33,441 bases of DNA from NCBI GenBank assembly GCA_012797845.1, contig JAAZOH010000005.1, forward strand, positions 1-33,441. The letters run 5' to 3'. Positions 6,477 through 33,373 of this stretch are shown piece after piece. The stretch is from Candidatus Beckwithbacteria bacterium (GTDB lineage: Bacteria; Patescibacteriota; Microgenomatia; UBA1400; UBA1449). The notes below the pieces were generated by a model. The model had not been told where the DNA came from. It was given only the letters and a program-made list of their open reading frames with translations, and ran no database searches. Position 1 is the first letter of the stretch, and the number at the start of each line of letters is the position of its first letter. Both the position numbers and the translations under genes were made by a program.

Positions 6477-6698
6477 TTACTTGCTTCTAAAGACTATTCT
6501 CCCCTTATTTTCATCGTATGGAGTAAACTCAACTTTGACCCGATCACCTGGTAAAACTCGAATTTTATACATTCTCATTTTGCCAGATAAAGTACATAGA
6601 ACCACCCGTTCATCTTCGTCTAATTTTACTCTAAAGGTTGTATTTGGCAGGGCTTCAACGACCTCTCCCTCTTTTGTTTCAAAGTTTTGTTTCCCCAT
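6477..6698 (-). CDS. infA: Translation initiation factor IF-1
   Basis: A 73-residue OB-fold protein that binds the A-site region of the 30S subunit. It has [19 protein letters not shown] (about 10-28), [25 protein letters not shown] in two typical blocks, and ends GRIVFRSK. Length matches the family. A promoter (TTGCTA, 16 bases, TATAAT at 6713-6718) lies just in front, so it and the genes behind it can be transcribed separately from map. With that promoter the 5' leader would be only about 7 bases, and no Shine-Dalgarno is visible. Confidence 0.97.
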
Positions 6699-6712
6699 AG
6701 TTACAGAGGTGA

Positions 6713-6740
6713 ATTATATCAAAAAAAAGCTCGTTAGCAA
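6713..6740 (-). promoter_or_regulatory. Promoter for infA-rpmJ-alpha operon
   Basis: -35 TTGCTA (6735-6740), 16-base spacer, -10 TATAAT (6713-6718), with infA ATG 14 bases beyond. It lies in the 59-base map-infA gap. Confidence 0.65.
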
Positions 6741-10162: not shown

Positions 10163-10175
10163 GTAAGCACAAACT

Positions 10176-10205
10176 AAAAAACTGCTTATATTAAAGACTA
10201 AGCAG
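10176..10205 (-). terminator. Terminator-like hairpin in the secY leader (attenuator geometry)
   Basis: Minus strand CTGCTTA (199-205 of the 10,000s) and TAAGCAG (10182-10188) with a 10-base loop, followed by TTTTTT (10176-10181). It lies downstream of the secY promoter and 13 bases before the ATG. Confidence 0.7.
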
Positions 10206-10225
10206 CGTATTTATTTAGGCAACTT

Positions 10226-10254
10226 ATTGTAGCAAAGGAAAGAGGAAATACCAA
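10226..10254 (-). promoter_or_regulatory. secY promoter
   Basis: -35 TTGGTA (10249-10254), 17-base spacer, -10 TACAAT (10226-10231). The predicted start near 10219 gives a leader of about 57 bases that contains the hairpin at 10182-10205. Confidence 0.7.
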
Positions 10255-10329
10255 ATTAGGAGATCAAGATAACAAACTGTCTTAGAACAGGTTGCAAATC
10301 TGCTCTGGTTGGTAAAGAGGTCTGTGTAA

Positions 10330-19678: not shown

Positions 19679-20314
19679 TTAACTTAATCTCTTGGTAATT
19701 TGTTCTAAAGCTTCTTTTGCAAAAACCAGCTGATGAGCTTTTAAGACTTCATAGCTGGTTAGTTTATCGCTTGCTAAACAAGTAACAATTGGTAAATTAC
19801 GGAAAGCTTTTTGGGCTTGACCCAAGTCTTGGGTAAGTACTAAGCCAATACCTCGTTGTTTTTTGCCTTCGTAGACAGCTTGGATAAAACCAGCAGCATC
19901 TTTGGTTTTAGCTTGTTTGATCTTATCCAAACCAGCTATCACAATAATAGCTTTGTCTGATGCTTTTACACTTAGAGCACTTTTTAAAGCTTCACGTCGC
20001 ATTTTCTTAGGGAATTTAAGACGGAAATGTTGGGTTGGCTTTGGTCCGTGAGCTTTGGATCCTCCTACAAAAATTGGGGCTTTTTTATCACCATGTCTAG
20101 CTCCACCCGTACCTTTTTGTCTATAGAGTTTTTTACCGGTTCGAGCAATGTCAGATCTGGTTTTAGTGGAAGCTGAGGCAGCTCGTTGATTCGACTGATG
20201 AATTCGGATAGCTTGGGCCAGCAGTTCCGGATTAGCTTTAGCTTCGAATATGGCTTTATTAAGCGTTAATTCTTCAATTTGTTTACCGGTAAGATCAAAA
20301 ACTGGTATTTTCAT
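19679..20314 (-). CDS. rplD: 50S ribosomal protein L4
   Basis: A 211-residue L4 (uL4) whose loop lines the exit tunnel. It has the loop with GKKLYRQKGTGGARHGDKKA (about 60-79), FVGGSKAHGPKPTQHFRLKFPKK and the helix RREALKSALSVKA. In E. coli L4 also controls the S10 operon by attenuation and translation repression, which is relevant to the leader in front of rplC. Length is normal. It lies 2 bases after rplC. Confidence 0.97.
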   Translation of the reverse strand: MKIPVFDLTGKQIEELTLNKAIFEAKANPELLAQAIRIHQSNQRAASASTKTRSDIARTGKKLYRQKGTGGARHGDKKAPIFVGGSKAHGPKPTQHFRLKFPKKMRREALKSALSVKASDKAIIVIAGLDKIKQAKTKDAAGFIQAVYEGKKQRGIGLVLTQDLGQAQKAFRNLPIVTCLASDKLTSYEVLKAHQLVFAKEALEQITKRLS

Positions 20315-20316
20315 AG

Positions 20317-21108
20317 TTATTTAGTTTCTTCTTTCTTTTCTACTTCTCCATCTTGGGTTTTTTCTTCTACTACTGTTTCTTCAGCTGGCTTGGCTTCTGA
20401 TTCCTGAGCTTTGGGTTCTTGATTTGATTCTTGCACCTCTTCTACTGTAGTTGCTTCTGTGTTTTGGTTTTGTAGGGCAACAAATTTTTTCTTACCTTTC
20501 TTGCACAGCAAAACTAAACCATCTTTTGGTCCGGGAATAGCTCCGGTCAACCAAAGTTCATTAGCAGCTTCATCGATATGGACAATCTGACTACCGCTAA
20601 TGGTAATAGTCTGATTACCCATTTGACCTGCCATTCGTTTACCTTTATAGACTCGACCCGGAGTAGTTCCTTGCCCAATAGAGCCTGGAGATCGTTGCCG
20701 ATCTGACTGACCATGAGTCTTAGGACCACCACTAAATCCCCATCGTTTCATGCCACCGGCAAAACCCTTACCTTTGCTAACAGCCGAAACAGTTACGGTA
20801 TCACCAAGTTCAAAAATTTGTGATACGGTAATTTGGTCTCCTACTTTTTTATCACTTGCTTCACTTAGTCTAATCTCACGAACATAGCGAGGCGTAATTT
20901 GACTAGTTTTAGTATGACCAGCTAACGGTTTGTTAATTCTTTTTCGATTTAAAACACCTACCTGGATAGCCTCATAGCCATCTTTATCACCATGTTTGAC
21001 TTGAGTTACAGTCACTGGTTTCACTAAAAGCTTGCTTACAAATAACCGTTTTCCTTCGGTATTATAGGCATGTATTTGGTTTTTCTTAATAGCGTAAAAG
21101 ATATCCAT
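20317..21108 (-). CDS. rplC: 50S ribosomal protein L3 with acidic C-terminal tail
   Basis: A 263-residue L3 (uL3), an early assembly protein reaching the peptidyl transferase centre. The core (about 1-215) has VSKGKGFAGGMKRWGFSGGP (about 108-127), THGQSDRQRSPGSIGQGTTPGRVYKGKRMAGQMG in the usual order, and a typical end at KKGKKKFV. About 45 further residues (EEVQESNQEPKAQESEAKPA and on) are acidic low complexity. The first 45 residues are also divergent (DIFYAIKKNQIHAYNTEGKR). It is first after a promoter, leader and terminator-like hairpin. No Shine-Dalgarno precedes ATG 21108. Confidence 0.96.
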   Translation of the reverse strand: MDIFYAIKKNQIHAYNTEGKRLFVSKLLVKPVTVTQVKHGDKDGYEAIQVGVLNRKRINKPLAGHTKTSQITPRYVREIRLSEASDKKVGDQITVSQIFELGDTVTVSAVSKGKGFAGGMKRWGFSGGPKTHGQSDRQRSPGSIGQGTTPGRVYKGKRMAGQMGNQTITISGSQIVHIDEAANELWLTGAIPGPKDGLVLLCKKGKKKFVALQNQNTEATTVEEVQESNQEPKAQESEAKPAEETVVEEKTQDGEVEKKEETK

Positions 21109-21140
21109 ATTATTTGAGTTTTTAGCTATGCTTGTAAAAT

Positions 21141-21165
21141 AAAAAAACCCGACTGTCGGGTTTTT
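21141..21165 (-). terminator. Terminator-like hairpin in the rplC leader (attenuator geometry)
   Basis: Minus strand AAAAACCCGA-CAG-TCGGGTTTTT, centred on 21148-21160, followed by an uninterrupted T-run. It lies about 83 bases after the predicted start site and about 35 bases before the rplC ATG. Confidence 0.75.
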
Positions 21166-21189
21166 CTAAAACCAAACGTCACTATAAAC

Positions 21190-21243
21190 TCATTTTACGT
21201 ACTTTCTTTGGCAACACATGTTTTGTTTGTGTATTAGCCGCAT
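21190..21243 (-). other. Possible 17-codon leader ORF upstream of rplC
   Basis: ATG 21243 to TGA 21190 reads MRLIHKQNMCCQRKYVK. The ATG lies about 5 bases after the predicted transcription start, and the stop is 24 bases before the terminator-like hairpin. There is no Shine-Dalgarno, so translation would have to be leaderless. It may be fortuitous. Confidence 0.25.
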
Positions 21244-21254
21244 AAACGTCAGCT

Positions 21255-21283
21255 ATTATAGCTTTTTTTGACAAAAATTTCAA
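21255..21283 (-). promoter_or_regulatory. rplC-operon promoter
   Basis: -35 TTGAAA (21278-21283), 17-base spacer, perfect -10 TATAAT (21255-21260). This is the best consensus promoter in the window. It lies in the 200-base rpsJ-rplC gap and gives the rplC-onward operon its own transcription start near 21248. Confidence 0.8.
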
Positions 21284-21308
21284 AAGTATTTGGTTTTTAA
21301 ACCAAAAA

Positions 21309-21620
21309 CTACATTTTAATCTCAATTCCTACTCCGGCGGGTAATTCCAAGTGCATAAGTGAATCAATCGTCTTATCAGTCGGCTCCATAATGTCAATTA
21401 GACGTTTATGAGTCAAAACTTGAAAATGTTCCCGAGCATCTTTGTCAGTGTGCGGACTAATAGTCACCGGAAATTTTTTGCGTTTTGTCGGCAGAGGGAC
21501 TGGTCCAACCACTTTGGCGCCAGTAGACAGAGCAGTTTGCAAAATTTTGGCTCCACATTCATCAATCACTCGATGATCAAAAGCTTTGAGTTTAACTCTA
21601 ATTCTCTGTGCAGCTGCCAT
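21309..21620 (-). CDS. rpsJ: 30S ribosomal protein S10
   Basis: A 103-residue S10 (uS10), which also serves as NusE in transcription antitermination. It has [20 protein letters not shown] (about 5-24), [30 protein letters not shown] in the usual order and [20 protein letters not shown] near the end. Length is normal. It is not in the same tight cluster as rplC: a promoter and terminator-like hairpin separate them. A 12-bp hairpin lies just before its ATG, and no Shine-Dalgarno is seen. Confidence 0.98.
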
Positions 21621-21626
21621 TTTTTA

Positions 21627-21664
21627 GTAAAAAGAGCCTCTGAAACATAAGCTCAGAGGCTCTT
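21627..21664 (-). terminator. Strong terminator-like hairpin between tuf and rpsJ
   Basis: AAGAGCCTCTGA (21632-21643) and TCAGAGGCTCTT (21653-21664) form a perfect 12-bp stem with a 9-base loop. On the minus strand TTTTTACT follows. It ends only about 11 bases before the rpsJ ATG and 15 bases after the tuf stop. Confidence 0.8.
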
Positions 21665-32900: not shown

Positions 32901-33373
32901 GCCTGATACAGCATTTTTCCTGAAACAGGTTCAATAGCGCCAGAAAAGAAAACACCAGGGCTTCGAACCAATTGGCTCACAACTGCCCGATCAATACCGT
33001 TGATAACAAAAGTACCAACTGGAGTCATAACTGGAATATCGCCCAAAAAGACTTCTTGGTCCATGGCTTCGCCAGTCTTTTTATTAACTAGAGTAGCCAT
33101 AACTCGCAAAGGCGCATCATAAGTCAAACCTTTATCTCTGGCCTGTTGAGGAGTCAGTTTTGGTTGGCCAATAGTATGGTTACCAAATGATAAGGACCAG
33201 TTTTTACCGGTAAAATCATCAATAGGAGAAATTTCTTTAAGACGTTCGGAAATGCCTTGGTTCAAAAAATCTTCGTAGGACTTGGTCTGCAACTCAACTA
33301 AATCTATCTTGGGAAGGGGTAAATCGGTTTTTCCTAAATACAAACGATTATCAATGTGAGTTGCTGGTTTCAT
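29912..33373 (-). CDS. rpoB: RNA polymerase beta subunit
   Basis: A 1153-residue subunit. It has PVMTPVGTFVINGIDRAVVS early, the rifampicin region (about 386-415), PEGPNIGL, the active-site region around KIAPKGETELTAEERLL and the GDKLAGRHGNKGVI block, then LGGKAQMGGQRLGEMEVWAL near the end. About 80 further residues form an acidic low-complexity tail. Several rifampicin-contact positions differ from sensitive bacteria. A terminator-like hairpin lies immediately before the start, and there is no Shine-Dalgarno. Confidence 0.98.
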   Translation of the reverse strand: MKPATHIDNRLYLGKTDLPLPKIDLVELQTKSYEDFLNQGISERLKEISPIDDFTGKNWSLSFGNHTIGQPKLTPQQARDKGLTYDAPLRVMATLVNKKTGEAMDQEVFLGDIPVMTPVGTFVINGIDRAVVSQLVRSPGVFFSGAIEPVSGKMLYQAELRPLRGSWLEFAVSRHNVISVKIDRHRKIPATTLLRALGLATDELLTETFSEVDTDKEHKFIEATLEKDPSKTQEEALIEIHDKLRPGEPAVLDNAKALVQSMFFDPRRYDLGKVGRYKLNRRLSLEVENIPENHVLTVQDIIATVAYLIKLQNGDGRVDDIDHLSNRRIRRVGELVSSVAFRVGLLRLERSIREKMSLAKADMLITPSSLVNPRPMVAAISEFFRRNRLSTILDQANPLAEIDNLRRLSVMGSGGVTRERASFSMRDINQSQYSRICPVRSPEGPNIGLVTYLSLYTKVNDYGFLEAPYRKVVPEKNGRKTKMKVTDEVVYLSPDEEEEYYITHAEVTIDDQGYLAEDWVGARHQGEFIEVDAETIQYMDVASRQVVGTSASLIPFLAHDEAIRALMGTHMQCQAVPLVSPSAPIIGTGMEKTVATAMKHVITSDFDGEVSFVDGDRVDIVLKKADAETVKANRLAYPFITKIKDTTVTYEVSKFKRSPQSTCYSQSPAVFANQKITTGDVIIDGPAADGGELALGKNLLIAYGAFDGLGYEDAIVISDRLVKDDTLSSIHINEYTIQVMDTKLGPEEITADIPNVGEDDLANLGEDGIVVVGSNVGSNDILVGKIAPKGETELTAEERLLRAIFGEKAREVRDTSLRMPHGEHGTVIDVHILDRDEGDELDPGVIKEVRVFVAQMRKVVIGDKLAGRHGNKGVISKIVPEADMPHLEDGTPVDIIISPLSVLARMNLGQLLEAQLGWAASRLGQKLALPVFEKIDENFIEEQMTKAGLPVNGKVQLYDGRSGEPYTNKTSVGIGYIMKLVHMVEDKMHARSTGPYSLVTQQPLGGKAQMGGQRLGEMEVWALEAHRAAYGLQEMLTIKSDDVVGRAKAFEAIVKGTDMPQSTVPEAFKVLVKELNSLSFNVIPEGVKEEEEQIDDPELEATKTEETLPVAESESSDDSTDDTNNDSFEEQSSENIDDLEPSDEELLEEGSED

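Follow-up and report, generated by a model that had tools for sequence, protein, structure and literature searches.

A putative transcription attenuator with a short open reading frame near the RNA 5′ end precedes rplC in a class of Patescibacteria

Introduction

The S10 leader of Escherichia coli lies before rpsJ and carries, like the leader described here, an attenuator hairpin and a U run before an operon with rplC and rplD. It acts via uL4 and NusA, whereas the present leader occupies the rpsJ-rplC gap, begins with an open reading frame (ORF) and bears no 23S-like sequence. The rplJL operon of Bacillus subtilis, as described in excerpts of PMC4538822, combines L10(L12)4-dependent attenuation with a leader peptide, and thus shares with our locus a ribosomal-protein operon and a terminator, as well as an antiterminator and a leader peptide, both putative here. 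In those excerpts, however, the peptide is encoded 3′ of the terminator and its Shine-Dalgarno sequence lies inside the terminator hairpin, whereas our ORF is found near the RNA 5′ end and 5′ of the terminator; in a further difference from rplJL, no anti-antiterminator is supported in the rplC leader.

Two mycobacterial systems also offer parallels. Leaderless polycysteine short-ORF attenuators (Canestrari et al. 2020, as described in part of PMC9031893) resemble the present leader in that a short ORF at or near the RNA 5′ end controls, or here would control, downstream genes; their runs of cysteine codons sense cysteine, whereas the rplC leader favors no residue, precedes a ribosomal-protein operon and ends in an intrinsic terminator. 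The same source portion notes that 70S ribosomes initiate on leaderless AUG codons at or near the 5′ end in other systems. At ilvB1 of Mycobacterium tuberculosis, excerpts of PMC13236596 describe an upstream ORF and mutually exclusive antiterminator and terminator, features with putative counterparts here, and a ribosome at the ORF stop that masks about 26 nt and permits termination; unlike at rplC, regulatory codons there sense branched-chain amino acids. Searches of one open-access library yielded no comparable leader from Patescibacteria, most subscription papers being outside their scope. These bacteria are small, little studied and reduced in genome.

Here, we analyze a 33,441-nucleotide stretch of DNA (the window), one of the 46 contigs of a 1.28-Mb Patescibacteria genome whose nearest named record by L3 is a member of the Woesebacteria (Microgenomates group). 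The general order of a leader-ORF attenuator (promoter, short ORF, intrinsic terminator, gene) is found in the window and class-wide. The layout is a variant of this already known kind of attenuation, and on the evidence below we read the rplC operon leader, with moderate confidence, as a transcription attenuator whose near-leaderless ORF is translated.

Results

The rpsJ-rplC gap contains a promoter, a short ORF and a terminator

On the minus strand of the window, the gene order is rpsL, rpsG, fusA, tuf, rpsJ, a 200-nt gap, rplC, rplD, rplW and more ribosomal-protein genes. Pfam assigns S12, S7, S10, L3, L4 and L23; fusA and tuf are genes that we take to be such from their sequences. The leader occupies the position between rpsJ and rplC, not that before rpsJ, and the RNA of this gap is predicted to fold more stably than 200 of 200 shuffled versions (z −4.7). 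Its features are:

21309 to 21620, minus strand: rpsJ (uS10), 5′ of the leader (Pfam PF00338)
21278 to 21283, minus strand: −35 hexamer TTGAAA, from a promoter scan; TTGAAA or TTGAAT in both family relatives
21255 to 21260, minus strand: −10 hexamer TATAAT after a 17-nt spacer, from a promoter scan; kept in the family alignment
21246 to 21249, minus strand: predicted transcription start, about 7 nt past the −10, placed from the promoter position
21190 to 21243, minus strand: leader ORF MRLIHKQNMCCQRKYVK, 17 codons, from an ORF scan; start position conserved class-wide, missing here in G001
21210 to 21239, minus strand: hairpin within the leader ORF, from the predicted fold
21168 to 21177, minus strand: candidate antiterminator strand GUUUGGUUUU, which would pair with the 5′ arm of the terminator; equivalent pairing in 3/3 family members, combined z −3.6
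21142 to 21166, minus strand: intrinsic terminator hairpin and U tract, 33 nt before rplC, from a fold-based scan
20317 to 21108, minus strand: rplC (uL3), first gene 3′ of the leader (Pfam PF00297)
19679 to 20314, minus strand: rplD (uL4), the gene after rplC (Pfam PF00573)

The original prediction, made from the letters of the window, had placed a near-consensus promoter, a short ORF just past its start site and a terminator-like hairpin in this gap, and all three were recovered. The promoter, TTGAAA-17-TATAAT, matches the consensus at 11 of 12 positions; since a scan of 1.5 kb returned five promoter-like sites against 3.6 expected, it stands out by quality and conservation only. The ORF runs from an ATG at 21243, 11 nt past the −10 and with no Shine-Dalgarno sequence, to a TGA ending at 21190. 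Taken alone, an ORF of 17 codons is not above chance, and it gains weight because a start codon recurs at that place across the class more often than chance allows. The terminator (21166–21142) consists of GAAAAACCCGACAGTCGGGTTTTTT followed by TATTTT, has a predicted energy of −12.1 kcal/mol and ends 33 nt from the rplC ATG (21108); the fold-based scan found it, and a consensus scan listed none. An 8-base direct repeat, TGACGTTT, is present where it had been reported (21251–21244 and 21181–21174), but was rejected as a functional element, as it is absent from the two nearest relatives.

These two relatives, the other members of family f1, both keep promoter and terminator, so that these elements are found in 3/3 family members, but the ORF in only 2/3. 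In G002, an ATG at the identical 11-nt offset opens the peptide MQQTEKIIIY; G001, nearest of all by L3 score, lacks a start codon at that place despite its promoter and terminator.

A start codon recurs at a fixed distance from the promoter

We compared leaders across the order and the class. L3 was found in 83 of 89 order genomes searched and in 361 of 373 class genomes. All of the 83 were used, and upstream regions were read for 128 of the 361, picked largely by L3 score and not randomly, giving 211 records in total. The counts leave out the named Woesebacteria record (it duplicates the leader of a G genome), L317 and L367, for which no rplC start could be located, and every leader containing masked bases; L167 is among the 211 and lacks a usable gap. 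A terminator lies at most 110 nt before rplC in 150 of the 211 records. Strong −10 elements were called with a matrix blind to ORFs at a cut-off score of 7.5, by which 46 of these 150 leaders were set aside (−10 below 7.5 or, in one, masked bases). The resulting 105 leaders with a strong −10 include one from f14 whose terminator, at 111 nt from rplC, places it outside the 150.

An AUG or GUG begins 8–14 nt past the −10 in 88 of the 105 leaders and, judged from predicted start sites, would lie at or very near the RNA 5′ end. Among the first 72 leaders, 63 had a start in this interval, compared to 13.4 (sd 3.4) in dinucleotide shuffles and 23 in the highest of 300 shuffled sets; other 7-nt windows in these leaders held 4 to 27 starts, the 27 coming from the window that follows directly and takes in the GUG of AUGGAGGUG. 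A held-out test set of 40 genomes gave 39 terminators, 33 strong promoters and a start at 8–14 nt in 25 of the 33, and two families examined later (f20 and f26) gave 17/20. Because the sequences are related, the shuffle figures overstate independence; the most trustworthy figure is obtained by drawing a single genome from each family, which gives a start at 8–14 nt in 14.1 of 17, control windows yielding 1.8 and 2.5. The distance from the ORF stop to the terminator is 19–40 nt in 67 of 96 leaders.

This conservation bears on another explanation of the gap, that the hairpin is the ordinary intergenic terminator of the tuf-rpsJ unit, preceded by an incidental promoter and a chance ORF. In its favor, there is another terminator in the tuf-rpsJ gap, and terminators unaccompanied by a strong promoter are seen in several families. 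However, a terminator sited between promoter and gene would obstruct transcription from that promoter, the layout is also present where rpsJ was not found upstream, and the position of the start codon is far from chance. We regard this explanation as already disfavored and very unlikely.

The layout is unevenly distributed. A terminator is present throughout f2, f3, f4, f8, f9, f12 and f15 and in 10 of 15 f11 records, and f2, f3, f4, f8, f11, f12 and f15 have these terminators without a strong −10. In f5, f6 and f7 no terminator precedes rplC; f10 has one in just 4/37, most of its members being without such a leader, and none of the 11 f41 records has a gap or leader. Among 24 genomes of other classes, 12 have a terminator and none a short near-5′ ORF. 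As neither f41 nor these 24 genomes carry a leader with a near-5′ ORF, a wider distribution is disfavored.

Different arrangements were noticed in some of these records. In f8 and f4 (L005, L006, L007, L010), inspection by eye showed a strong Shine-Dalgarno sequence, AGGAGG, and after it, before the terminator, an ORF of 5–9 codons that opens with TTG or ATG, in place of the near-5′ start. In other Patescibacteria classes (L319, L321, L323, L324, L325, L329, L331), the rplC leader has a different motif resembling GGUAAGUCC..GGAAACUAUCC, mostly without a U-tract terminator.

The position and shortness of the ORF are kept, its residues are not

The leader ORFs span 2–17 codons (96 leaders), that of the window being the longest; in the null set for the first 72 leaders, 33% of ORFs are longer than 17 codons. 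Their peptides are alike inside families (M....EV.L(A/T)T in f30, MSKLLI.S.VT in f42, VSREN in f26, MQMV or MILLSG in f17) and differ between them; a peptide conserved between families, for which an alignment of relatives had been proposed as a check, was accordingly rejected. In f30, diversity at codon positions 1, 2 and 3 is 0.28, 0.12 and 0.30, a weakly coding-like pattern. The f26 ORFs (L334, L363–L372) are strikingly similar, with a GTG start and often VSREN(C), which suggests a constrained peptide or RNA.

No amino acid dominates: among 653 leader residues the most frequent, Val, accounts for 13.8%, and none exceeds 14%. Cysteine makes up 0.5% of the 653, with no run of cysteine codons of the kind looked for; a single CysCys pair occurs in the ORF of the window. 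In 26 of the 96 ORFs, chiefly from f30 and f42, Thr is the last residue, which could be read as a trace of trp- or ilv-type attenuation that senses an amino acid. Against such sensing stand the lack of a favored residue, the variation of the peptides between families and the controlled genes, which are not biosynthetic, and we consider it extremely improbable. Rather, because the position and shortness of the ORF are kept and its residues are not, the act of translation is the likely signal, not the peptide or an amino acid.

The source genome makes use of leaderless starts, 14 of 33 strong −10 elements lying 6–10 nt before a gene ATG; compared with most of these genes, the leader ORFs start a little farther from the −10. 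In the window, a gene that we take from its sequence to be infA also seems leaderless, with its ATG 14 nt after a TATAAT (about 6698–6718, minus strand). With the leaders of the class comes a large number of very short ORFs, probably translated, which escape gene finders.

Alternative RNA pairings are supported in some families

Among 19 f30 sequences, the ORF end complements the terminator arm and loop of its own leader better than it does the arms of its relatives in that family (z −3.2, 0/2000 permutations), and a control segment 5′ of the promoter gave p 0.62. In f1, putative antiterminator pairs form in 3/3 leaders (GUUUGGUUUU/AAAACCCGAC, CAUUUGG/CCGAAUG and UUGGAAGGUUUU/AAAACCCGCCAA; combined z −3.6), with loop bases and partner changing together. 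Covariation of the sequences thus supports antiterminator pairing in f30 and f1. Over all leaders, the mean z was −0.39 with loose terminator limits (104 leaders) and −0.56 with tightened limits (97 leaders). In f31, the spacer alone exceeds permutation for pairing with the terminator arm, weakly (p 0.02); pairing of the f31 ORF start GGAGGUG with the arm sequence CGCCUC, striking by eye, was rejected (p 0.18 by permutation).

We modeled a ribosome on the ORF by masking the bases it would cover. With the ribosome at the stop, predicted antiterminator pairing falls from 0.68 to 0.36 in f30 and is likewise halved in f42, so that ribosome position is predicted to choose between the structures in these two families. 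For the window no such choice is predicted: pairing is 0.68 in the free RNA, 0.65 with a ribosome at the start and 0.68 with one at the stop. Antiterminator pairing begins 11 nt past the ORF stop in the window (14 nt in G002), so that a terminating ribosome would abut the antiterminator without covering it, and masking has no effect. Nor does the window ORF offer an anti-antiterminator; the candidate was rejected as no better than chance (z −0.24), and the three f1 leaders together gave z values of −0.24, 0.12 and 1.18. The attenuation geometry originally proposed for this gap is borne out as a conserved layout, but masking lends no support to an effect of the ribosome on the window terminator itself.

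The window result accords with another use of the ORF, in which early ribosome loading raises expression, through protection from Rho or coupling to RNA polymerase, and the terminator is a fixed partial brake: the window antiterminator is predicted to stay formed with a ribosome on the ORF, and in B. subtilis, according to excerpts of PMC4538822, expression rises when the rplJL leader peptide is translated, presumably because Rho is hindered. In f30 and f42, however, the antiterminator would be lost with a ribosome at the stop, an effect of opposite sign, and early loading gives no reason to expect that the f30 ORF end and terminator arm should covary. We judge early loading to be unlikely as the main function.

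The f17 leaders hold a conserved RNA (e.g. L209, L211) of the form CAGUAGAUCGCGCGUC..GAUACGGCGAUU..GCGAAAUACUG, for which no Rfam match was found in the loci searched. A single strand of it covaries with two exclusive partners (19 sequences, 0/2000 permutations each; control p 0.21), 14 of 33 f17 leaders being outside the search pattern; this supports a two-state RNA, as read from covariation. Six of 10 genomes match the pattern, each with a single copy of the core, located at rplC, and f17 ORFs show no pairing with the terminator arm above permutation. The original prediction had also suggested a search with covariance models; the window returned no Rfam match at gathering score, and among 20 loci with leaders a relaxed limit of E ≤ 1 brought up a lone snoRNA match, far below its cut-off.

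The f17 two-state RNA directly before the terminator counts in favor of a ribosomal protein that regulates through the leader, which we treat as a serious rival to reading by ribosomes. By this account uL4 (or uL3) would bind the leader and promote termination, in the manner of the S10 leader of E. coli, with the ORF auxiliary; the operon indeed encodes uL3, uL4 and uL23, and E. coli uL4 causes premature termination in the S10 leader (part of PMC10931766). However, mimicry of 23S rRNA was not seen at the level of sequence, neither the f17 core nor the window leader having any likeness to its own 23S rRNA in this comparison. Moreover, the leader RNAs vary between families while the ORF position is common to them, and autogenous control leaves the start codon near the 5′ end unexplained. 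Overall, we think it rather unlikely.

In 295 kb of the source genome, the full layout is seen at rplC alone

As a control within the source genome, we surveyed 295 kb with 276 ORFs of at least 80 aa, 137 of which follow a gap of at least 60 nt. Nineteen of these 137 spaced genes have a terminator 5–70 nt upstream, and four also a strong promoter; among the four, only rplC has a near-5′ ORF. The other three leaders precede cysS-, ileS- and leuS-like genes (L304 before 2658, L305 before 1760 and L309 before 6468), whose products we take to be CysRS, IleRS and LeuRS from their N-terminal sequences. A T-box was rejected for these synthetase leaders, which have no match to the Rfam T-box model at gathering score.

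Discussion

A model for the leader

Comparison among genomes demonstrates, at the level of sequence, the promoter, the position of the start codon, the shortness of the ORF, the order and spacing of the parts and the terminator, and it supports the alternative pairing in f30 and f1. From this anatomy we infer translation of the ORF and switching of two structures in the cell, as well as the thing sensed and the sign of the effect. RNA polymerase would start from the TATAAT promoter in the rpsJ-rplC gap and produce a leader RNA bearing a start codon a few bases from its 5′ end, where a ribosome could translate the very short ORF. Terminator hairpin and antiterminator pairing would compete for the terminator 5′ arm, and owing to this competition a share of transcripts would stop before rplC.

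If the act of translation is what is read, then for a ribosomal-protein operon the supply of ribosomes is the natural signal, and we infer that the rplC leader may sense it. In its class-wide form, which we put forward tentatively and hold to be possible at best, free ribosomes would be read by the near-5′ start; when they are plentiful, the mini-ORF would be translated, the antiterminator blocked and the operon turned off, which would spare a bacterium of minimal genome any dedicated regulator of ribosome synthesis. The modeled anatomy of f30 and f42 predicts that translation lowers rplC, and that of the window predicts no sign. The layout may allow the cell to tune ribosome production via the efficiency with which the mini-ORF is translated. 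If true, this would be a feedback device built purely from RNA and the ribosome, in which the peptide is free to vary, and the leader offers a testable reporter for the whole class.

Further hairpins in the window

Other gaps in the window also contain hairpins with U runs. In the tuf-rpsJ gap, a strong hairpin with a U run (21633–21663, minus strand; −19.7 kcal/mol) ends 12 nt before the rpsJ ATG; as there is no space for a promoter between it and rpsJ, it is probably a partial terminator, which would lower rpsJ relative to tuf. The gap before secY (10163–10329, minus strand) has a TACAAT followed by a U-run hairpin (10206–10181), 18 nt before the secY ATG. Further U-run hairpins lie directly 5′ of fusA (25168–25139) and of the ORF at 33373 (33414–33390).
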